DNA of 21,198 nt. Origin: a virus. Made by a program: the position numbers and the translations under genes. Shown piece by piece: positions 7,114-20,528 of the stretch. A model generated the notes under the pieces. The model worked only from the letters and a program-made list of their open reading frames with translations. It had not been told where the DNA came from and did no database searches. The stretch is from IMG/VR virus record IMGVR_UViG_3300023501_000066, positions 1-21,198 of that record. One strand, written 5' to 3'. Within the stretch, counting starts at the first letter, position 1, and the number at the start of each line of letters is the position of its first letter.

Positions 7114-7662
7114 ATGGATCATTTAGAAGCAATTGTCGAGATAAAAAATATAGTAGCTCCTGATTTTATAGATAGAATTATACCTTTAATAAATCATAAA
7201 GCTAAAAAAAATTTAACAGTTCAAGGGGGGTTGGATAAAGATATAAGAAATGTAAAAGGCTTTAGTTTAAATTATAAAAAATCAAAAATTGAAGATTTTT
7301 ATTGGAATTATATAAAACAAGAAATAGAAAAACTTTATACTTATTACAAAATAAAATTTCCTAAAATGACAAGCTCGAAAATTAATCAAATAGATTTATT
7401 AAAATATTCACCTGGAGGAAAGTATGAAATACACACAGATCATTATACAACGACAGCAAGACATTTAAGTATTATTATGAATTTAAACGATGATTATGAA
7501 GGTGGAGATTTAATTTTTACAGATCAAAAAGAAAAGGAAGTAAAAAGATTAAAACTAAGTACAGGTTCAATTGTTTTTTTTCCAAGTAATTTTATGTATC
7601 CCCACGGTATTCAACCTATTACGAAAGGAACAAGGTATAGTATTGTCGCTTGGCTACAATAG
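7114..7662 (+). CDS. 2-oxoglutarate/Fe(II)-dependent oxygenase, prolyl-hydroxylase type (182 aa)
   Basis: A dioxygenase of the prolyl 4-hydroxylase-like double-stranded beta-helix fold. The full metal and cosubstrate set is visible: H107-T-D109 in KYEIHTDHY, distal H164 in YPHGI, and R174 (ten residues on) in GTRYSI for binding 2-oxoglutarate. LNDDYEGGDLIF (124-135) and GSIVFFPS (151-158) are also typical. Such enzymes use O2, Fe(II) and 2-oxoglutarate to hydroxylate protein side chains, nucleobases or small molecules; the substrate here is unknown. It is the first gene after the 7034-7061 promoter, with a weak ribosome site. The DNA is much richer in A/T than the capsid genes, suggesting separate acquisition. 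Confidence 0.88.
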   Translation: MDHLEAIVEIKNIVAPDFIDRIIPLINHKAKKNLTVQGGLDKDIRNVKGFSLNYKKSKIEDFYWNYIKQEIEKLYTYYKIKFPKMTSSKINQIDLLKYSPGGKYEIHTDHYTTTARHLSIIMNLNDDYEGGDLIFTDQKEKEVKRLKLSTGSIVFFPSNFMYPHGIQPITKGTRYSIVAWLQ

Positions 7663-7683
7663 ATTATAAATTAATAAAAATAA

Positions 7684-8289
7684 ATGATTAGTATATTAAA
7701 TAAAAATAATAAATTAGAAGAAAACAAAAATAGTATTAATATTACTTATCCCAGAACTGTAAATATAATTTTTGGTAATTATGCTTATCCAGAAGTTATA
7801 AATAATTTTTTAATTAATATTAAAAATAATTTAAGTGCTAAACTGGAAAATTATACTCATGTAAAAGGAGGAATGACCGATTGGAATTATTTTGTAGATA
7901 AACCTAATTTTATCAATTTTATAAGTTATTTAATAAATACACATCAAACAACACATCCTGATATATTTCAACATTTCTTACAAAAACAAACTATTGAATC
8001 AGCTTGGGGTAATGAAATAAAAAAAGGGGATAGTTTAAATTACCACGCGCATCGTTCTTTACACGGCCTTTTATATTTAACAAAAGGATGTGATTTAATG
8101 TTACCTGAATTAAATTTAAAAATAACTCCTGAACCAGGAGATTATTATATATTTCCCCCTGAAATACTTCATGGTTTTGATTTATATAATGGGGAAAAAA
8201 ATAGATATAGTTTAATATTTAATATAAGAGAAAAAAATCGTTTTGAATATTCAAAAAAAGTAAAAGAACTCAATGAAAAAAACAGTTAA
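7684..8289 (+). CDS. Putative 2OG-Fe(II) oxygenase with H-x-H motif (201 aa)
   Basis: The C-terminal half matches the pattern of the 2OG-Fe(II) oxygenase family I know as 2OG-FeII_Oxy_5: SAWGNEIKKGDSLNYHAH, then LHGLLYL, then TPEPGDYYIFPPEILHGF and NRYSLIFNI. Candidate metal ligands are H121-A-H123 and H163, with R174 for 2-oxoglutarate. The first pair is H-x-H rather than the classic H-x-D. In this family H-x-H is, as far as I recall, normal, but the metal site needs checking. The N-terminal 90 residues are AT-rich Asn/Lys sequence. The first 60 bases of this region (7681-7740) contain only six G or C. There is no clear Shine-Dalgarno. The gene follows the first oxygenase after 21 bases and overlaps the next by 17 bases. 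Confidence 0.72.
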   Translation: MISILNKNNKLEENKNSINITYPRTVNIIFGNYAYPEVINNFLINIKNNLSAKLENYTHVKGGMTDWNYFVDKPNFINFISYLINTHQTTHPDIFQHFLQKQTIESAWGNEIKKGDSLNYHAHRSLHGLLYLTKGCDLMLPELNLKITPEPGDYYIFPPEILHGFDLYNGEKNRYSLIFNIREKNRFEYSKKVKELNEKNS

Positions 8290-8863
8290 TATAAATAACT
8301 TTATTGGAGTATATGATAATTACATTACAAAAGAAGAATGTAATAGAGCTATTAAATTATATGAAGATCAAAATAAATTTAATAATACTATTAATAGAAT
8401 AGGATTTGAAAAAGCCTCTATTTTACAAAAACAAGATCAACAATTTTTTGCAGCAACTAATAATGTAGATGTATGGTGGGAAATTTTAAAACCCATGATG
8501 TTTAATTTTGATATAGCCTTAAAGCATTATATAGAAAACACTGGAGCAAATGATGCTTATGGAACTCCATTTCATTTTACATCTTTAAAAATTCAAAAAA
8601 CATTACCTACTGAAGGCTATCATATTTGGCATATAGAACACGGGAAAGGTTTTGATAATGAACCTAGAGCTTTTGCTTATTCTATTTATTTAAATGATGT
8701 TGAAGATGGAGGAGAAACAGAATTTCTACATTTTTCAAAAAGAGTAAAACCTAAAACAGGTAGAATAGTTATTTGGCCTGCAAGTTTTCCATATGTTCAT
8801 AGAGGAAATCCACCCTTATCTGGTGAAAAATATATTTTAACTTCTTGGATGTTGGTGAGATGA
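8273..8863 (+). CDS. 2OG-Fe(II) oxygenase with H-x-E motif and Lys in place of Arg (196 aa)
   Basis: Residues 115-195 show the double-stranded beta-helix core: GYHIWHIEHG (115-124), AYSIYLNDVEDGGETEF (135-151), GRIVIWPASFPYVHRGNPP (163-181) and GEKYILTSWMLV. The likely metal ligands are H120-I-E122 (or H117) and H176; K186, ten residues after H176, takes the place of the usual Arg. I recall cyanophage oxygenases with a similar WHxE...GGETEF...HRGNPP...KYI pattern, so the H-x-E and Lys may be family traits and not decay. The start overlaps the previous gene by 17 bases. The end shares ATGA with the next gene. Function is probably hydroxylation of an unknown target. Confidence 0.8.
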   Translation: MKKTVNINNFIGVYDNYITKEECNRAIKLYEDQNKFNNTINRIGFEKASILQKQDQQFFAATNNVDVWWEILKPMMFNFDIALKHYIENTGANDAYGTPFHFTSLKIQKTLPTEGYHIWHIEHGKGFDNEPRAFAYSIYLNDVEDGGETEFLHFSKRVKPKTGRIVIWPASFPYVHRGNPPLSGEKYILTSWMLVR

Positions 8864-9378
8864 TTAAAATTATTAATGATTTTTTTAATGAAAATCAGTT
8901 AAAATTAATTCAAAATTTTACTTTAACTAAAGCTGCCTACACCCCTTGTTTTTTTGACAATGCAATAGAAAAAAATAAAGAATCTCATTATGGCAATAGA
9001 TTCTATATAAATACAGATAATGAACTTAAAAATTTGTTTATAAAACAAGCTGAATTAAAATTCAATTTAAAAAATTTAAAAATTGATAATGCATCAGGAA
9101 TTGATCAAAGAAACTTAGATCATTTTAAACCACATGTGGATACTGTCTCTGGTATATTAAATATATTAATAATGATATCAGGGCCCACTTCAGTTACGAA
9201 TGGAACTGTATTTTATTCTAAAAATAAAGAGGAAGTAGAATTAGATATCCATGTTGGATTTAGAGAAAATAGGGCTATAATGTTTCCATCAGATTGGTGG
9301 CATTCACAACACGCAAGTAAAGTACCTAACTTAAAAAGATATACAGCTACTTTATTTATAAAAGATTATGAAGAATAA
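8860..9378 (+). CDS. Putative 2OG-Fe(II) oxygenase (172 aa)
   Basis: The reading frame could begin at 8845, but the ATG at 8860 overlaps the upstream stop as ATGA and is preceded directly by GGTGAG, so I chose it. From this start, DHFKPHVDTVSG gives H92-V-D94, FPSDWWHSQHAS gives distal H148 (H151 is an alternative), and LKRYTATLFI gives R160, the full H-x-D...H...R set of 2OG-Fe(II) oxygenases. NILIMISGP and RAIMFPSDWWH fit the beta-helix strands. The pattern resembles oxygenases of phage genomes that bind a peptide or nucleotide, but no subfamily is recognised. It is last in the cassette and overlaps the convergent fibre-associated gene by 13 bases at their 3' ends. Confidence 0.75.
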   Translation: MIKIINDFFNENQLKLIQNFTLTKAAYTPCFFDNAIEKNKESHYGNRFYINTDNELKNLFIKQAELKFNLKNLKIDNASGIDQRNLDHFKPHVDTVSGILNILIMISGPTSVTNGTVFYSKNKEEVELDIHVGFRENRAIMFPSDWWHSQHASKVPNLKRYTATLFIKDYEE

Positions 9379-9748: not shown

Positions 9749-10327
9749 CTAAGTTTTAATAATATAAATTAATGTTAAATAAGGTTGAAGAACCGAAGTT
9801 GCATCACCAGAAAAAGTTGCACTCATATTATGAGAGTGACCTGATCCTGAACCAGTGCTTGCCACAACACTGTTGTTAAGACTGGCGAATGCAGGACCAT
9901 CTGTTTTTACCGAATTTTGATATCCACCAGGATTACCTAGCGTTTGCAATGCGTGAACGTGAGAAGAAAGTTGTGCTGTCGATAAAGTTGCATTTGCTGT
10001 TGAACCACCTACGTTTCCTGTTGCTGATACAGTGTCTGCTCCACCTGTTGAAGCTAAAGCTTTAGTTCCAGATTTACCAACTGCAATATTATCTTGTAAA
10101 TCAGGTGTATTAAAAGTAGTGGATCCGTCCCCTATACCATAAGTTGTGCTTATGATTGCAAATAAAGCAGAGTAAGTTGTTCTTGAAACTGCTACACCAT
10201 CACATTCTAAAAAACCTGATGGTAATACTGCTGCTGACCAAGGTAAAATTGTACCTGTAGCTGTGCCTTCTATACCTGTAAGGTTTGCTCCATCAAAATC
10301 ATATTTAGTTGCTTCGTAATTTGCCAT
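9749..10327 (-). CDS. Tail collar-domain protein (tail fibre tip)
   Basis: Residues 24-90 are a clear phage tail collar domain: GTILPWSAAVLPSGFLECDG, then SRTTYSALFAIISTTYG, GDGSTTFNTPDL and NIAVGKSG. The C-terminus reads SGHSHNMSATFSGDATSVLQ and ends PYLTLIYIIKT, as in many short fibre/tip proteins. Two H-x-H motifs are present (H123-V-H125 in SSHVHAL and H164-S-H166 in SGHSHN). In T4 fibre proteins similar H-x-H motifs bind metal ions. Expected role: trimeric distal fibre part that contacts the host surface. It is one base after the stop of the 256-aa fibre gene, whose last codons contain the GGAG ribosome site. Confidence 0.85.
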   Translation of the reverse strand: MANYEATKYDFDGANLTGIEGTATGTILPWSAAVLPSGFLECDGVAVSRTTYSALFAIISTTYGIGDGSTTFNTPDLQDNIAVGKSGTKALASTGGADTVSATGNVGGSTANATLSTAQLSSHVHALQTLGNPGGYQNSVKTDGPAFASLNNSVVASTGSGSGHSHNMSATFSGDATSVLQPYLTLIYIIKT

Positions 10328-11156: not shown

Positions 11157-12185
11157 TTATATACTATTAACGTCACTATAACTAGCATTTTGCGTGGCAG
11201 TTACATTACTATAACTAGCGCTTTGTGTTGCTGTAACATCTCCATATCCTAAAGGTGCTACATTTCCTACACTAACAGTTGCTGACACTCCAGTCAAGCC
11301 CATTACGTCAGTAGGTGAAATTGCTCCAACTGTTGACGTTAAAGATAGTCCAGATAAAGTATATTCAAATCCTGTAACTAAAGATCCCACAGAAGAGGTT
11401 GATGACACTCCAATTAAATCTATAAGTTCAACGTTGACAATAGCTAGTAATCCAACGGAAGATGTTACTGCAAGTCCTGTTAATCCCATTACATCTGCAG
11501 GTGTAATAGCACCTACTGAAGATGTTGCTGCAAGCCCTGTTAATCCCATTACATCTGCAGGTATAAGAGCCCCCACTAAAGATGTTGCACTAACCCCCGT
11601 TATAACAGGTGTAGAATCTATAACAAAACTTAAAGAACCCACATTAGAAGTAGAACTTACCCCTGTTAAAGATATTACAGATGTTAAATCTAAAGTTAAA
11701 GATCCAACACTAGATGTTATACTTAATCCTGATAGTTGTTCTAATTTATTAAATGAATCTCCGTAAGGTTCTTCTCCCCAACCATTTCTACCCCAACCAA
11801 CTAATGTTCCCGCATTGTCAAAACTACCAAGTTCGGTTATGGCACTTAAGCCGGTTAAAGCTGCGATTGTAAGTTGAGTAGTAGTTGGTGATCCAACGGA
11901 AGTTGTTGCTGAGACGCCAGTTAATTCTGCTGTAATAATTTGAGCAGCTACAATATTTCCAACACTAGAAGTTGCGCTTAATCCTGTTGGTAAAACTGAA
12001 TAGTCTACACCCCAACCAGAGTTTCCCCACTGTTGTCTGCTCCAGCCTTGTTCATTGAAAGATTCTAAAGAACCTACTGATGATGTTGATTGTAAACCGG
12101 TTAAAGAAACTGTTAGAGTATTAGATTCCCAAGAATTTTCATTCCATGCTACTGAAGGATTATCACCACCCCAAATAGATGCCAT
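11157..12185 (-). CDS. Tandem-repeat tail fibre/adhesin-like protein (342 aa)
   Basis: Twelve copies of an 11-residue unit close to TGVSATSSVGS begin at residues 29, 67, 89, 111, 152, 174, 196, 216, 236, 258, 278 and 298, about 20 residues apart in the second half. Two Trp/Gly-rich linkers (GWSRQQWGNSGWG near 47-59; WGRNGWGEEPYG near 131-142) echo the Trp-rich N-terminus. The C-terminus carries two TATQSASYSN-like repeats (318-338). I recall such TGVSATSSVG repeats in marine phage structural proteins; a fibrous, beta-rich shaft is likely. The start and ribosome site sit inside a perfect inverted repeat (12183-12202). Host-binding is inferred. Confidence 0.7.
   Translation of the reverse strand: MASIWGGDNPSVAWNENSWESNTLTVSLTGLQSTSSVGSLESFNEQGWSRQQWGNSGWGVDYSVLPTGLSATSSVGNIVAAQIITAELTGVSATTSVGSPTTTQLTIAALTGLSAITELGSFDNAGTLVGWGRNGWGEEPYGDSFNKLEQLSGLSITSSVGSLTLDLTSVISLTGVSSTSNVGSLSFVIDSTPVITGVSATSLVGALIPADVMGLTGLAATSSVGAITPADVMGLTGLAVTSSVGLLAIVNVELIDLIGVSSTSSVGSLVTGFEYTLSGLSLTSTVGAISPTDVMGLTGVSATVSVGNVAPLGYGDVTATQSASYSNVTATQNASYSDVNSI
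11166..11243 (-). repeat. C-terminal VTATQSASYS peptide repeats
   Basis: Two imperfect 11-residue units (VTATQSASYSN and VTATQNASYSD) end the repeat protein; the DNA copies differ at only a few positions. They differ in sequence from the main TGVSATSSVG repeat. Confidence 0.75.
11262..12101 (-). repeat. Twelve-copy TGVSATSSVGS coding repeat
   Basis: Each copy encodes a T/S-G-L/V-S-x-T-S-x-V-G-x core. The copies vary in DNA except for adjacent 60-base units at 11461-11520 and 11521-11580, which I count as matching at 53 of 60 positions. That pair implies a recent duplication within an older repeat array. Confidence 0.85.
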
Positions 12186-16442: not shown

Positions 16443-17348
16443 TTATGCACCACTACAACCGAAGATACCTCTATAGTCGGATACACCAAACGCGTATCTT
16501 TCTCTAGCTTTGTATCTAACGTTTCCAGTGTCAAAGTCCCCTTCCATTGACGTAGTCAACGGAGTTCTTGAGAACATCTTCATACCATTTGGAACGTCTG
16601 TGATTAAGTACCAAGAATCAGCGTCAGTTAGGAAGTTGTTCACTCTATAACCTTGAGGAACCATTCCCATTGAGTTGATTGCATTGATATCATTATCAGC
16701 AGTTTGAGTTCTACCTTGAGACTTCATAAGTCTTTCAGCGTTGAACTGGTTAGCTGATGGAATGATCATCTTAACCGCTTTAGCAGCTATTCTTAAACCT
16801 CTTTCATCAGTGAAAGCAGCTACGTCGATTAGCGCTTGCTCTAATGAAGTTTCGTTTAAGTCAGCTTGAGTAGCAAAAGTGTTAGCTACATTCGTACCTG
16901 AAACTGTAGTATGCGCTGTACTAAACAGTGCTACTTGGTCTCCAGATGTGAAAGTAGTAAAACCATTATTTAATGGTGCTGCACCTTTTACTTCTTTAGC
17001 GTTGGACATAGATCTTGCTAGTGCTTTTGTGTATCTAGAAGAAAGTCTATCATAAAGGTTATCCTCTATTGCTTCTTCAGTGATAGCGAAAGCTAGCGCA
17101 ATCGTTTCCATTGTGTATCTAGCAGTGTAAGTTTCTTGTGCTTCATCGTAATTAACACCTGAACCTTCTGCTTTGACTTCTGCGTTTGCAAAACCAGATA
17201 ACATTACTTCCTCTTCGAAAGCTCTGTCAGATGATTCTTTTGTATAAATCTCAGCGTGCTGATTTTCATATCTTTTGTATTCCAAGCCAAATAGTGCATT
17301 TAGACCTGGCTCTAACTCTTTAACGAGTTGTGCTCTTGATATTGCCAT
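16443..17348 (-). CDS. Major capsid protein, HK97-type
   Basis: A 301-aa protein with a conserved N-terminus, MAISRAQLVKELEPGLNALF, then EYKRYENQHAEIYTKESSDR, EEEVMLSGF, and ETYTARYTMETIALAFAITE followed by EEAIEDNLYDRLSSRYTKAL. I recognise this as the Mu gpT-like/marine-phage form of the HK97 coat fold. Later landmarks are AAKAVKMIIPSANQFNAERL and DSWYLITDVPNGMKMFSRTP. It would form the icosahedral head shell. It follows the scaffold, the 152-aa protein and the probable decoration protein, and precedes a hairpin; GC content is among the highest in the window (26 of 60 in one line at 16501-16560). The start has an AGGAG site. No N-terminal protease-cleaved delta domain is visible, so the separate scaffold probably does that job. 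Confidence 0.88.
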   Translation of the reverse strand: MAISRAQLVKELEPGLNALFGLEYKRYENQHAEIYTKESSDRAFEEEVMLSGFANAEVKAEGSGVNYDEAQETYTARYTMETIALAFAITEEAIEDNLYDRLSSRYTKALARSMSNAKEVKGAAPLNNGFTTFTSGDQVALFSTAHTTVSGTNVANTFATQADLNETSLEQALIDVAAFTDERGLRIAAKAVKMIIPSANQFNAERLMKSQGRTQTADNDINAINSMGMVPQGYRVNNFLTDADSWYLITDVPNGMKMFSRTPLTTSMEGDFDTGNVRYKARERYAFGVSDYRGIFGCSGA

Positions 17349-17371: not shown

Positions 17372-17941
17372 TTAACTTGGTGTTACAAATTCGCAAAGGT
17401 TTTGTACTACTATTACTTTTGCATAAGCCGCTGTAATGTCTTCATTCTCAGGGTCTTCTGCTACTCGTATTAGTCTCCATTGCTTACTTGTTGCTGATGT
17501 AGTTCCGATATCTAATGTTTGAGATGATCTTCCCGTAACTGTACTTCCTGCAACAGCATTACTGTCGTAAGTTTCCATAAATCCAGCTTGTGCTACTGTG
17601 TCGTCAGTTGCAATTTCATAGTTCTGGAAAGGGTTATCATTTACAAACGCATCAATATCGCCACTGCCATCAGTAGCTGTGCTTGCTATATAAACGTTAC
17701 TCCACGTTGGCTTTTGTGTGTTAGCCGCAGTGTAGAAACATCCGTTGAATACACCAATAGTTTTACTACTGGCTGTACCAACTGTCACATAACCAGCTGC
17801 AGTTTGAACCTGCGTGCCGAGATATATGTTAGTCGCGTTGCCATTATCGATTTTATACTTTGACTGTCCCGACGTTGCAGGCGAATTGCCCAACGTACTA
17901 ACAGGTGTAAAACCCATTCCGGCTACATTTCTATTTGCCAT
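17372..17941 (-). CDS. Putative capsid decoration/head protein (189 aa)
   Basis: Starts MANRNVAGMGFTPVSTLGNS and is a Thr/Ser/Ala-rich beta protein, with KYKIDNGNATNIYLGTQVQT, then GVFNGCFYTAANTQKPTWSN and EIATDDTVAQAGFMETYDSN. It has no scaffold-like or enzyme motif. It sits directly before the major capsid gene, as decoration (cement) proteins often do, and has a strong AAGGAG site, consistent with abundant expression. A head-surface role is the best guess; a minor capsid protein is an alternative. The upstream gap has a short GC hairpin. Confidence 0.6.
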   Translation of the reverse strand: MANRNVAGMGFTPVSTLGNSPATSGQSKYKIDNGNATNIYLGTQVQTAAGYVTVGTASSKTIGVFNGCFYTAANTQKPTWSNVYIASTATDGSGDIDAFVNDNPFQNYEIATDDTVAQAGFMETYDSNAVAGSTVTGRSSQTLDIGTTSATSKQWRLIRVAEDPENEDITAAYAKVIVVQNLCEFVTPS

Positions 17942-18022: not shown

Positions 18023-18481
18023 TTATTTCTTACCGCCACCGAAGCTTTTGCTAGAACGCTCGACGCTCATCGGCATTCTTCTATCTTGATCCCTAAGTAA
18101 GTCGTTGTTTACTGCTTCGTCTTGAGCTTGAGTTTGTTTACGTTCATACTCTTGACGTTGCTGCGCAAGTTCTTCGGGTATCCTTGCCAAGACAAGGCCT
18201 CCTACTCCAATTACTCCAGCGTATTTTCCGTCTTGTACTATTGGAAAGTCAGAATCTTCATACTCTTCAGCTCTCACTAATTCGTATCCAGCTCTTAATC
18301 TACCATGTAAATTTTTGGTATCTTGAAAGCCCATTGATTCTACTCTTATCCATCTGTGTACAAAGCCGTCTGGCGCTGCAGGTGCATCGAGTGATGAAGG
18401 TGGCTTATACTCTTTAGGTCGTTCAGTTTTGTCCCTAGTATTAGCCGCACGAGAAGTTTTATTTATTGTTTCTTTTGTCAT
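18023..18481 (-). CDS. Conserved head-associated protein between scaffold and capsid (152 aa)
   Basis: The N-terminal 40 residues are hydrophilic. The core (39-105) reads GFVHRWIRVESMGFQDTKNL, then LRAGYELVRAEEYEDSDFP and GKYAGVIGVGGLVLARIPEE; the C-terminus is a charged helix ending SFGGGKK. I know this core from marine phage genomes at the same place, beside scaffold and coat genes, without a defined function. Four bases separate its ATG from the scaffold stop, with the GGAG overlapping that stop. It is likely made with the scaffold and may be an assembly factor or inner-capsid protein. Confidence 0.65.
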   Translation of the reverse strand: MTKETINKTSRAANTRDKTERPKEYKPPSSLDAPAAPDGFVHRWIRVESMGFQDTKNLHGRLRAGYELVRAEEYEDSDFPIVQDGKYAGVIGVGGLVLARIPEELAQQRQEYERKQTQAQDEAVNNDLLRDQDRRMPMSVERSSKSFGGGKK

Positions 18482-18485
18482 ATGC

Positions 18486-19433
18486 TTATGCTCCTTCCGT
18501 GAGTTTTAATTGTTTTGCATATTCTTCGAGTGGCACTCCTAATTTTTTAGCTATTGCTACCTGTGAAGAAGTGAGTCTCACAGTTTTGCGACCAGGTTTT
18601 GTGCTTCTGTTAGCCGAAGCTACCGACTGAACGGCCCTGTTCGTTTGCTTTATATTATTATTACCAAATTTATGACCAAAGTCAACTCTAATTCTCTTGT
18701 CAACCTCTTCATAATATTCATTACTCGTTGGATCATATCCCTCTTTTTCCACTAAATCCTTGTGAATTTCAAAGGCAGTAAAAGTCATAGCTCTATCTGT
18801 TCCGAACCATTCGTTTTTTGTTGCCCAATCTTCCGCCATAGGATCAGCTTGTGGTAATGATTTTGGAGTTTGTCTTGGTAAGTTTCCACCGTCAGATAGT
18901 TGTACAGGAATTTCCCGTTCAACTGGTCTTGTTGCTCTACGTTGCTCTGCTTTAGCATTCTCAAAGGCTAAAGAAGCAATTCTTTTATTAGCTTCAACTT
19001 GTAACGCCGCATCACCATTCTCAATAGCCAGTGCAAGATCTCTCTGCGCTGAATCGAGTCCAGTTTTTAGGTTAGTTTCAAATTTAGTTTGGTAGTCAGA
19101 ATCAATCTTATCGAATCTAGATTTATCCTCTCTTCTTTTTTCTTCTACAGCGCCGGCGTATTGAAGTGCAGCTTGCTCTCGTCTTTCAGCTTCTCTCATC
19201 TTACGAGTCAATTTAGCAATTCTAGATTGTACACCTGTACTATAATCTTCTAGTTTTTTGTCTTCCTTTGTTTCCTGTATTACTTCTGTTTCTGTTCCGT
19301 GGTCCGTGTTTCCTGAATCAGTATCAATAACTGATTCTTCTTTTGTTTCTTCTATATCTACATCAATTTCTGGTCCTGATGTATCTAGATCAACCGACAT
19401 TTGTCCCGGTGATTGTTTTTGGTCTTCTGGCAT
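18486..19433 (-). CDS. Capsid scaffolding protein
   Basis: A 315-aa acidic, highly charged protein upstream of the capsid gene, as expected for a scaffold. Residues 1-65 are Asp/Glu-rich and disordered (SVDLDTSGPEIDVDIEETKE). Residues 68-170 form a coiled coil (RIAKLTRKMREAERREQAAL, continuing to RREDK). Later come DPMAEDWATKNEWFGTDRAM, then EIHKDLVEKEGYDPTSNEYY and DFGHKF. The C-terminus (280-311) is basic and helical (KTVRLTSSQVAIAKKLGVPL), matching the coat-binding helix of other scaffolds. A good GGAAGGAG lies upstream. It would direct capsid size and then leave or be degraded. No protease motif is visible. Confidence 0.8.
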   Translation of the reverse strand: MPEDQKQSPGQMSVDLDTSGPEIDVDIEETKEESVIDTDSGNTDHGTETEVIQETKEDKKLEDYSTGVQSRIAKLTRKMREAERREQAALQYAGAVEEKRREDKSRFDKIDSDYQTKFETNLKTGLDSAQRDLALAIENGDAALQVEANKRIASLAFENAKAEQRRATRPVEREIPVQLSDGGNLPRQTPKSLPQADPMAEDWATKNEWFGTDRAMTFTAFEIHKDLVEKEGYDPTSNEYYEEVDKRIRVDFGHKFGNNNIKQTNRAVQSVASANRSTKPGRKTVRLTSSQVAIAKKLGVPLEEYAKQLKLTEGA

Positions 19434-19453: not shown

Positions 19454-19894
19454 TTAGTATTTGTGCAGGATATCTGTTGGATCCTGTACTGTTGCGAGTA
19501 TCTCATCGTCGTTTAATAGACGAACTTCTCCACCTTCGATCTCGATTCGTGATCCGGAATAACGTGCAAAGACTACCCAATCTTTAACCTTGCACCACGG
19601 ACCATGTGGAAATTTATTTTTATCTAAATAACAATCAGGTCCCATTGCAAGAACGTTTCCGCATTGCGATGCAACTTGTTGTCTATCGATAGTTTCTTGT
19701 CCCATTAAGATTCCGCCATTAGTTTTCTCTTTCATTCTGAAAGGGAGAACTAACATACGCCATCCTGTGGGCATAGGTAATTTTGTAGTTTCCGCTGTAA
19801 TTTCTTTTACAGGTTCTTCTTTATATTTATCTAATAATGCTGATTTAATTTGTGGGACCTCTGTGGAGGTCGATGACTGTTCCGCGTTGTTCAT
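19454..19894 (-). CDS. GroES-like co-chaperonin
   Basis: Residues 40-140 follow GroES: PTGWRMLVLPFRMKEK, then mobile loop TNGGILMGQETIDRQQVASQ (58-77), GNVLAMGPDCY, a WCKVKDWVVFARYSGSRIEI core and LLNDDEILATVQDP. The GGIL (60-63) corresponds to the GGIV of GroES that docks on GroEL, so it probably works with the host GroEL, like T4 gp31. The first 39 residues are an acidic/polar extension absent from bacterial GroES. Located just before the scaffold, it likely helps fold coat protein. The AAGGA ribosome site supports the start at 19894, although the gene overlaps the 78-aa gene by 50 bases. Confidence 0.88.
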   Translation of the reverse strand: MNNAEQSSTSTEVPQIKSALLDKYKEEPVKEITAETTKLPMPTGWRMLVLPFRMKEKTNGGILMGQETIDRQQVASQCGNVLAMGPDCYLDKNKFPHGPWCKVKDWVVFARYSGSRIEIEGGEVRLLNDDEILATVQDPTDILHKY

Positions 19895-20081
19895 TTTCTT
19901 CCTTATCGTTTAGCAGGCTAATGATTTCCTGGCGCACTGATTCCAATGCATTTATTTGTCCTATTATATACTTGTAAGTCTCCATACTGTCAACCCCTCC
20001 TGATGTAACGGATAAGGCCAATAATGTGACTCTTTTATCTAGTGCTCTTCTTAATTTCGCTAATACTTGTTCTGGTTCCAT
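19845..20081 (-). CDS. Small helical hypothetical protein (78 aa)
   Basis: Reads MEPEQVLAKLRRALDKRVTL, then TYKYIIGQINALESVRQEII and SLLNDKEENEQRG, a pattern of two amphipathic helices that I associate with a common small marine-phage protein of unknown function. The Tyr-Lys-Tyr-Ile-Ile-Gly-Gln segment is the most characteristic part. An AAAGGG site precedes the ATG. The 3' end overlaps the GroES gene by 50 bases in another frame, and the GroES ribosome site lies in this gene. It may assist packaging or assembly by location; no proof. Confidence 0.65.
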   Translation of the reverse strand: MEPEQVLAKLRRALDKRVTLLALSVTSGGVDSMETYKYIIGQINALESVRQEIISLLNDKEENEQRGTVIDLHRGPTN

Positions 20082-20091
20082 TTTTCCCTTT

Positions 20092-20256
20092 CTATTTTGC
20101 TATTTTATCTTTATTGGGTCCCTTTTTTATCACATAATCTTGAGTTCCGCTAGCCCCTGTTTCTACTTCTTTTTTCAAGTGTCTAAACAAACTCATCTCT
20201 TTTATCTTTCTATAATGGTCTTTTAAAAAGGCTTCAATATCTTTAGTATCTCTCAT
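20092..20256 (-). CDS. Small lysine-rich hypothetical protein (54 aa)
   Basis: Found by reading the minus strand from the ATG at 20256: MRDTKDIEAFLKDHYRKIKE, then MSLFRHLKKEVETGASGTQD and a basic tail ending KIAK. The ATG overlaps the stop of the 90-aa gene (TAATG), so coupling supports it. It ends 10 bases before the next start and covers what would otherwise be a gap. It is helical and charged, with no recognisable domain. Confidence 0.65.
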   Translation of the reverse strand: MRDTKDIEAFLKDHYRKIKEMSLFRHLKKEVETGASGTQDYVIKKGPNKDKIAK

Positions 20257-20528
20257 TAACAATTCCATTTTCTAAGTGATTTAGATAATCTATCTTCACC
20301 CGTATTATTACTAGCTTTTTGTCTTTTTCGCATACCGGTCATACGCGCGCAGAAAGAAGATCTACGTTTAGCGTCTTTAGAACCTGCTTTTAATTTTGAG
20401 GGTTTAGTAGTAACTGCTGTTTTAAGTTTTGATCCAGGATTTGCTGCTCTGTAAGATGCAACACCTTTAGCATTCAGTCCACCTGATTTAGATTTACCTT
20501 CTTTTCTAGTCCAAGCTGCAGTAGCCAT
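20256..20528 (-). CDS. Conserved basic small protein (90 aa), DUF6321-like
   Basis: The sequence has the layout MATAAWTRKEGKSKSGGLNA, KGVASYRAANPGSKLK, then RRSSFCARMTGMRKRQK and the end RLSKSLRKWNC. I recognise this as a widespread small phage protein, probably the DUF6321 family; the name is from memory. Strong positive charge and Arg/Lys-rich segments suggest nucleic-acid or capsid-interior binding. It is linked by TAATG overlaps to the 48-aa gene upstream and the 54-aa gene downstream. One Cys in SFCAR and a terminal Cys (WNC) are conserved features as I recall. Confidence 0.7.
   Translation of the reverse strand: MATAAWTRKEGKSKSGGLNAKGVASYRAANPGSKLKTAVTTKPSKLKAGSKDAKRRSSFCARMTGMRKRQKASNNTGEDRLSKSLRKWNC

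Follow-up and report, generated by a model that had tools for sequence, protein, structure and literature searches.

A phage GroES with a selected N-terminal arm and a conserved C-terminal tail in an HTVC023P-type head module

The stretch of viral DNA analyzed here (the window; 21,198 nt) encodes, among genes for head proteins, a GroES with additional residues at the N-terminus. The question raised by this locus is whether these residues are a genuine part of the protein and, if so, what an arm of this kind might do on a co-chaperonin lid; Cpn10 lids are usually regarded as caps. The first-pass annotation of this DNA described a phage GroES fold with a GGIL mobile loop and an N-terminal extension of 39 residues. 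Beyond that description, the locus shows an upstream small ORF that overlaps the gene by 50 nt, alternative arm motifs among the relatives and a conserved C-terminal tail (Table 1).

Table 1. Positions in the window of the GroES gene, its parts and the neighboring head genes
Feature	Position	Strand	Basis
Upstream small ORF, 78 aa, phrog_32603 (E 3e-16), overlaps GroES start	19845..20081	-	PHROG match
TAAGGA ribosome-binding site, 5 nt 5' of GroES ATG	19900..19905	-	sequence
Phage GroES (Cpn10) gene including arm and tail	19454..19894	-	146 aa; Pfam/PHROG; AlphaFold2 model
Overlap (50 nt) of upstream small ORF with first arm codons	19845..19894	-	sequence
N-terminal arm, residues 1-40, low model confidence save weak helix 19-25	19775..19894	-	start calls, AlphaFold2, dN/dS
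Class A short motif, residues 12-27 (EVPQIKSALLDKYKEE)	19814..19861	-	motif profile, 107 distinct A arms
Mobile loop region with GGILM, residues 55-78	19661..19732	-	4 residues longer than E. coli GroES
Roof segment, kept, residues 86-104	19583..19639	-	G85-D105 span
Conserved C-terminal tail past Cpn10 fold, residues 138-146 (DPTDILHKY), modelled helix 139-145	19457..19483	-	conservation, dN/dS, model
Scaffold-like protein, 315 aa, phrog_28737 (no annotated function)	18486..19433	-	position, model, weak scaffold match
152-aa protein, phrog_36003	18023..18481	-	240/240 loci having 1,700 nt or more of downstream sequence
189-aa protein, phrog_37556	17372..17941	-	215/215 loci having 2,400 nt or more of downstream sequence
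Major capsid protein, Phage_capsid_4 / Mu gpT-like, 33.2 kDa, likely client	16443..17348	-	Pfam 4.2e-12, phrog_371 9.4e-25

The GroES core, its arm and its tail

The GroES ORF starts with ATG and contains a Cpn10 domain in residues 42-135 (PF00166, E 4.3e-10; 39.9 bits against a cut-off of 21.1); residues 41-137 match phrog_3188, 'co-chaperonin GroES' (E 4e-19), and the NCBIfam GroES models match as well, each below its own cut-off. The AlphaFold2 model was computed from 67 family rows (the window protein and 66 representatives less than 90% similar, leaving aside the named isolates and rows L001-L004) and contains the Cpn10 beta-barrel, with a mean pLDDT of 70.5 overall and 87-92 in the barrel blocks. 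Values below 50 are found at residues 1-18, 27-33, 58-63 and 69-71, the last two stretches being inside the mobile loop. The top matches of the model among solved structures are Cpn10/GroES proteins (1wnr, Z 11.2, 2.2 A over 73 residues; 3nx6, Z 11.1), and the first non-related structure appears at Z 7.5. Two glycines followed by hydrophobic residues (G60-G61-I62-L63) form the mobile-loop motif. Among the matches listed, the R46-G79 span is 33 in all 226 aligned proteins compared to 29 in E. coli, and the G85-D105 span across the roof is 19 or 20 compared to 19 in E. coli. The fold, the mobile-loop motif and the roof segment are shared with bacterial GroES (E. coli, T. thermophilus); the E. 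coli protein, at 97 aa, has a shorter mobile loop and neither arm nor tail. Family membership and the predicted fold thus agree in identifying the product as a phage GroES, as originally annotated.

About 40 residues precede this core, in good agreement with the extension initially proposed. The GroES gene was located in 309 sequences, namely the window, four named phages and 304 IMG/VR loci; the latter are the best matches kept per scan, some of them from one contig fetched twice, and these scans started from GroES itself. Two of the 309 run into the edge of the contig before a start is reached, leaving 307 callable loci. In all of these, among the matches listed, the start with the best ribosome-binding site is located 29-56 residues before the core and is preceded by a Shine-Dalgarno match of at least 5 bases, the strength of which is not independent of the call because starts were chosen by the best such match. 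Arms are also present in all 14 loci from genome collections (MAG, single-cell and other genome contigs, three of them labelled Pelagibacteraceae), where they span 32-54 residues. The first-pass annotation had named relatives beginning near residue 40 as the sign of a start-codon error, and neither set of best starts contains any. Where the arm does not overlap the upstream ORF, dN/dS is 0.19 in class A, 0.32 in class B and 0.18 in class C (the classes are described below) compared to 0.06-0.12 in the core, as measured in pairs 80-98.5% identical that share class, arm length and overlap length and are not independent of each other; a single pair of class 'other' exists as well. These values indicate that the arm is constrained, although less tightly than the core. 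Judging by these sequence comparisons, the arm is a real part of the protein that is subject to purifying selection outside the gene overlap. The alternative that translation truly starts near residue 41, for which one can cite an ATG at this position in the window and start codons within 12 residues of the core in 36 of the 307 loci (8 of these also with a Shine-Dalgarno-like match of at least 4 bases), has a negligible probability and is rejected given the start calls, the absence of a Shine-Dalgarno match ahead of residue 41 in the window, the poor conservation of Met at this position (entropy 2.47, with Q the commonest residue) and the selection acting on the arm.

At the opposite end of the protein, the nine-residue tail follows the consensus xPxD[IL]LHx[YF], in which P139 and H144 are invariant in the 226 aligned proteins (among the matches listed). 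The conservation of the tail matches that of the core (mean entropy 0.97 and 0.92, respectively), with dN/dS of 0-0.09 in classes A-C. Exactly 15 residues follow the string LNDDE in 206 of the 207 proteins that contain it; the string is absent in 19. In the RW group, the tail reads GDPLAIKAFI instead. It is already published that HTVC023P-type pelagiphages, a group called widespread, have GroES among their 13 core genes (PMC9599517); the selected, modular arm and the conserved tail are the additions made here. No description of the arm motifs, motif switching or the tail was found in the literature searched, which mostly lay outside subscription journals.

The head module and linkage to the coat lineage

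The head module of the HTVC023P type is found in the window in one run: a small ORF, GroES, a scaffold-like gene, genes for proteins of ~153 aa and ~195 aa, and the coat gene. Among the matches listed, each of these genes is present wherever the locus has room, bar one small ORF (the homolog of which was found in 292 of the 293 loci with room). The scaffold-like gene follows GroES in all 252 loci whose downstream sequence reaches 1,100 nt and is separated from it by no more than 60 nt in 291 of 293, and the coat gene is found downstream in all 144 long-enough loci, again among the matches listed. The window does not include the portal gene, the upstream position of which was seen only in named phages. 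The initial description of GroES as placed beside scaffold and coat genes is thus accurate for the neighbor, with the proviso that it is a scaffold by prediction, whereas the coat gene comes after two further genes. The product of the neighboring gene is encoded upstream of the coat and is largely helical; its model consists of an acidic N-terminus of low confidence, a 92-residue helix and a C-terminal helix pair, an organization that we take to resemble that of known scaffolds. It weakly matches the scaffold PHROG phrog_8865 (E 0.0024) and has no match in NCBIfam; hence 'putative scaffold' appears to be the appropriate label. The acidic N-terminus of this protein also contains a motif, VD[IL]DTSGP (residues 14-21, ~19371-19394), which is the majority sequence in 55 aligned relatives (5 of 59 candidates were left out of the alignment).

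Homologous coats were identified in 21 phage records, and 18 of these have GroES near the coat, 16 found by direct match and two annotated as such and scoring above the Pfam cut-off; the surroundings were fetched for 12 of the 18, and match positions were used for the other six. Podo-, myo- or siphovirus isolates are among these records, and the hosts include SAR11, Roseobacter, Caulobacter, Alcaligenes and cyanobacteria. In MinM2, the coat spans the end of the record. The three records with no GroES nearby, two of which were inspected, have the most distant coats (28-29% identity). Scans that started from the coat provide an independent test. Among the matches listed, GroES is located 1.8-3.5 kb upstream of the coat in all testable loci of two coat groups that are 35-45% and 37-40% identical to the window coat (35/35 and 73/73), and in none of the six testable loci of a distant group (24-32% identical); loci that were too short (15/50, 7/80 and 2/8) were left out, and presence of GroES upstream of the coat rather than gene order was scored. 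This linkage, 108/108 versus 0/6, is the strongest support for a role of the GroES in head formation, most simply in the folding of the coat. The head-assembly job suggested by the first-pass annotation is accordingly well supported by linkage; co-inheritance with a coat lineage is not proof of a client relationship.

The explanation that we favor, and that taken as a whole seems somewhat more probable than its negation, is that this protein would act as a phage-specific lid for the host GroEL, retained as a fixed member of a single head-assembly module, thanks to which the 33-kDa coat of the module, the presumed client, would fold efficiently late in infection. The arm would then be a translated, mostly flexible tether that displays one short docking motif (class A in the window) at a variable distance from the lid, with seven arms per lid if the protein forms a heptamer as other Cpn10s do. 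Most likely, the arm would tether a partner near the folding cage, and this partner would be a head protein or else a site of the chaperonin itself. The basic job of the module apparently does not depend on the arm since, in the kin of QDWS535, which have the same head module, 39 of the 41 GroES proteins are only 98-115 aa long and lack the long arm. If this explanation is correct, a lid with several flexible arms and an exchangeable, selected motif would imply that a co-chaperonin can choose or hold its partner. The coat-lid pairs from phages with different hosts and tail types comprise a large natural set, in which one can ask why coats that fit the normal cage need a dedicated lid.

Arm motifs, their switching and candidate partners

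Two main motifs are found in the arms: A, with the form EVPxxKxALLDKYxxE in the window, and B, with the form IxLPNKELVGVKK. Among the matches listed, the 227 distinct proteins include 119 with class A arms, 68 with class B, 38 with class C (the HTVC023P type) and two others, and no arm with two motifs is found in this set. The consensus of motif A over 107 distinct arms is E-V-P-K-x-K-x-[AG]-L-x-[DE]-K-Y-x-x-E, in which E-7, P-5 and K-4, none of which belonged to the search pattern, are conserved at 97-99%; that of motif B over 68 arms is I-x-L-P-N-K-[ED]-L-V-G-[VL]-K-K, with P conserved at 99%, I at 90% and KK at 82-87%. The weak helix modelled in the window arm coincides with motif A. The motifs are separated from the core by 15-42 residues in class A and by 20-31 residues in class B, and a short motif on a spacer of variable length is typical of docking segments. 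A helix similar to that of motif A (ALEEKW, ALQKKW, ALERKW) is present in the more distant DSL-LC04 and in two genome-collection loci, which suggests that A may be the older form of the arm.

The arm class has switched repeatedly among these loci. On the core trees (105 columns), the A/B label changes 10 times with 81 loci and 9 times with 148 loci. On FastTree trees of the neighboring proteins, constructed for 148 distinct loci of 174, there are 7 changes for the scaffold-like protein and 6 each for the 153-aa protein and the upstream ORF; of these, at least 5, at least 5 and at least 3, respectively, are forced by the starred branches. These 6-9 changes compare with ~42 for shuffled labels (148 loci), which indicates that the class is mostly inherited, with occasional but repeated switches, as far as the trees tell; repeated convergence would look the same as recombination. 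For example, the loci L086 (class B) and L112 (class A) encode scaffolds that are 90% identical, followed by two proteins with 94% and 96% identity and by coats with 99.5% identity, the latter over only 210 residues because the L112 coat is cut off.

One can go a step further and view the arm as a swappable docking cassette: co-chaperonins of the same coat lineage would exchange two unrelated short motifs, probably through recombination with the overlapping upstream ORF, and so would tether much the same lid and head proteins to different partners, such as surfaces of the host GroEL or host factors. This is possible but tentative, and we would sooner bet against it than for it. In a search for partners by shared motif, strict forms of motifs A and B were not detected in 3,976 neighboring ORFs. 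A looser form of the motif A core occurs in 6 copies of a small phage protein in the same set (0.3 expected in shuffles), with ALEDKYxxE near its start, encoded ~846 nt (L040) and ~1945 nt (L162) upstream of the GroES stop; variants of this protein lose the motif, so that the likeness is probably coincidental.

Alternatively, the arm might have no outside partner, and instead fold back on the lid or line the GroEL-GroES cage, thereby adjusting the volume or charge of the cage, possibly together with the C-terminal tail of the neighboring subunit, an arrangement that we consider unlikely. The N- and C-termini are near each other in the Cpn10 ring. The longer mobile loop of all 226 proteins along with the nearly fixed length of the tail indicates that the whole lid is remodeled; also, switches of arm class with little change in the scaffold are compatible with the chaperonin itself being the partner. 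Nevertheless, the almost three-fold variation of the motif-core distance in class A is odd for a packed element, motifs A and B are dissimilar, and the arm is placed with low confidence in the model. Less likely still is that the lid boosts host folding in general in the course of infection, untied to the coat. T4 gp31 and RB49 CocO can replace GroES for essential host proteins (PMC3012670), and accordingly, a phage lid need not be client-specific; the location of GroES inside the head module and its association with one coat lineage are not what such a booster would lead one to expect.

The suggestion of the first-pass annotation that the extension recruits the scaffold encoded next door is not favored and is given a low probability. 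The near-constant adjacency of the two genes described above is in its favor, as is the presence of a member of the same PHROG after GroES in four distant phages, with weak matches in two of these. However, the motif class switches at least 5 times on the scaffold tree, and armless GroES genes also have a gene in the scaffold position. Scaffolds of class B loci are up to 92% identical to those of class A partners; all eight best cross-class pairs have L112 as the A partner, and without this locus the best value is 85%. When the cores are 94-100% identical, scaffolds aligned over at least 280 residues are 80% alike between classes (11 pairs) and 75% within classes (698 pairs). Thus, the class does not strictly track the scaffold lineage, and this speaks against a contact with the scaffold that depends on class. 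The equivalent comparison of full-length coats, 88% between classes (3 pairs) versus 94% within (227 pairs), with the best cross-class pair at 95% identity (L052/L021), decides nothing on class-specific contact given that only three pairs are informative; the comparison that yielded 98% versus 94% included coat fragments.

It is very unlikely that the explanation lies in the arm working, or at least traveling, with the small protein of the upstream ORF. The two genes overlap in 303 of the 307 loci (among the matches listed) and, with cores 94-100% identical, the upstream ORF products are 64% alike between classes (13 pairs) but 81% within (737 pairs), the cross-class pairs being few and with shared loci; furthermore, in the L086/L112 pair, this protein is only 40% identical, in contrast to 90-96% for the scaffold and the next two proteins. 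The arm class may indeed travel with this ORF, but physical overlap alone would produce such co-travel, and even on the upstream-ORF tree the class still switches as noted above. Least plausible among the explanations of an arm that is actually translated is that it is a passive by-product of the overlap, which we regard as extremely improbable and largely refuted: the ubiquity of the overlap and the roughly equal constraint on the two frames in class A (0.61 vs 0.66) are compatible with it, whereas ALLDKY, the conserved part of the window's motif, falls outside the overlap, selection acts on the GroES frame of the arm where no second frame overlaps it, the overlap itself is constrained in the GroES frame in classes B and C (0.27 and 0.11, compared to 1.8 and 2.2 for the other frame), and DSL-LC04 has an arm of 46 residues and no overlap. 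The idea that the QSSTS/PLSTS/TLSTS run echoes the conserved TVIDL of the upstream ORF is not borne out by the two-frame counts, with class A undecided.

Relatives of the co-chaperonin and other genes of the window

The closest known systems are those of the HTVC023P-type pelagiphages (HTVC027P gp55, HTVC023P gp36 and 023Pt_psg01), which share the family, the arm, the tail and the gene order with the window and are annotated in their records just as GroES. Isolates of this group exist (HTVC027P, HTVC023P). The HTVC027P protein is 64% identical to that of the window over residues 1-146, and its coat is 82% identical; HTVC023P has the third, unrelated arm type. GroES is likewise encoded upstream of a homologous coat in the Caulobacter RW group, CRP-901/902, Planktothrix/Synechococcus phages and Alcaligenes phage QDWS535. 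In the RW kin, the arm has another sequence (~27 residues in the printed ones), and the tails differ from that of the window both in this group and in the QDWS535 kin. In CRP-901-type phages, GroES is marked in a figure legend of PMC10149686, and many phages encode GroES alone, as stated in PMC7185714. Viral GroES proteins of 153 and 155 aa are present in a public predicted-structure library.

The label 'T4 gp31 type' given in the first-pass annotation does not hold. The window protein resembles T4 gp31 and RB49 CocO in being a phage co-chaperonin with a longer mobile loop and, presumably, a coat client, and its model matches the gp31 fold (1g31, Z 8.5; 2cgt, Z 9.3). However, there is no significant profile match to the single gp31 sequence (hhalign E 0.19), and gp31 has no roof, a loop of 22 residues versus 16 and a client, gp23, of ~56 kDa (PMC6318259), whereas the window protein keeps the roof and is linked to a coat of 33.2 kDa, its likely client. 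Sequence, roof and client size thus all speak against membership in the gp31 type. No annotated virion head gene is found in a 9-kb region around T4 gene 31. A bigger cage for a large client is also inapplicable to a 33 kDa coat, the four additional mobile-loop residues notwithstanding.

Several other regions of the window encode proteins worth recording. Four consecutive ORFs for 2OG-Fe(II) oxygenase-like proteins (7114-9378, plus strand) run opposite to the structural genes, and the GC content is lower there (29% compared to 34-38%); three of the four reach the Pfam cut-off. A 342-aa protein (11157-12185, minus strand) consists of imperfect 20-22-residue repeats (LTGLSATSSVGS-like, with a 60/66-nt spacing), has no Pfam match and is possibly a tail or fibre protein. 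Also on the minus strand are a 192-aa protein with a phage tail collar domain (9749-10327; Pfam E 1.5e-20) and a 90-aa DUF6321 protein (20256-20528), the matches of which include the C-terminal ends of a number of larger phage protein families.
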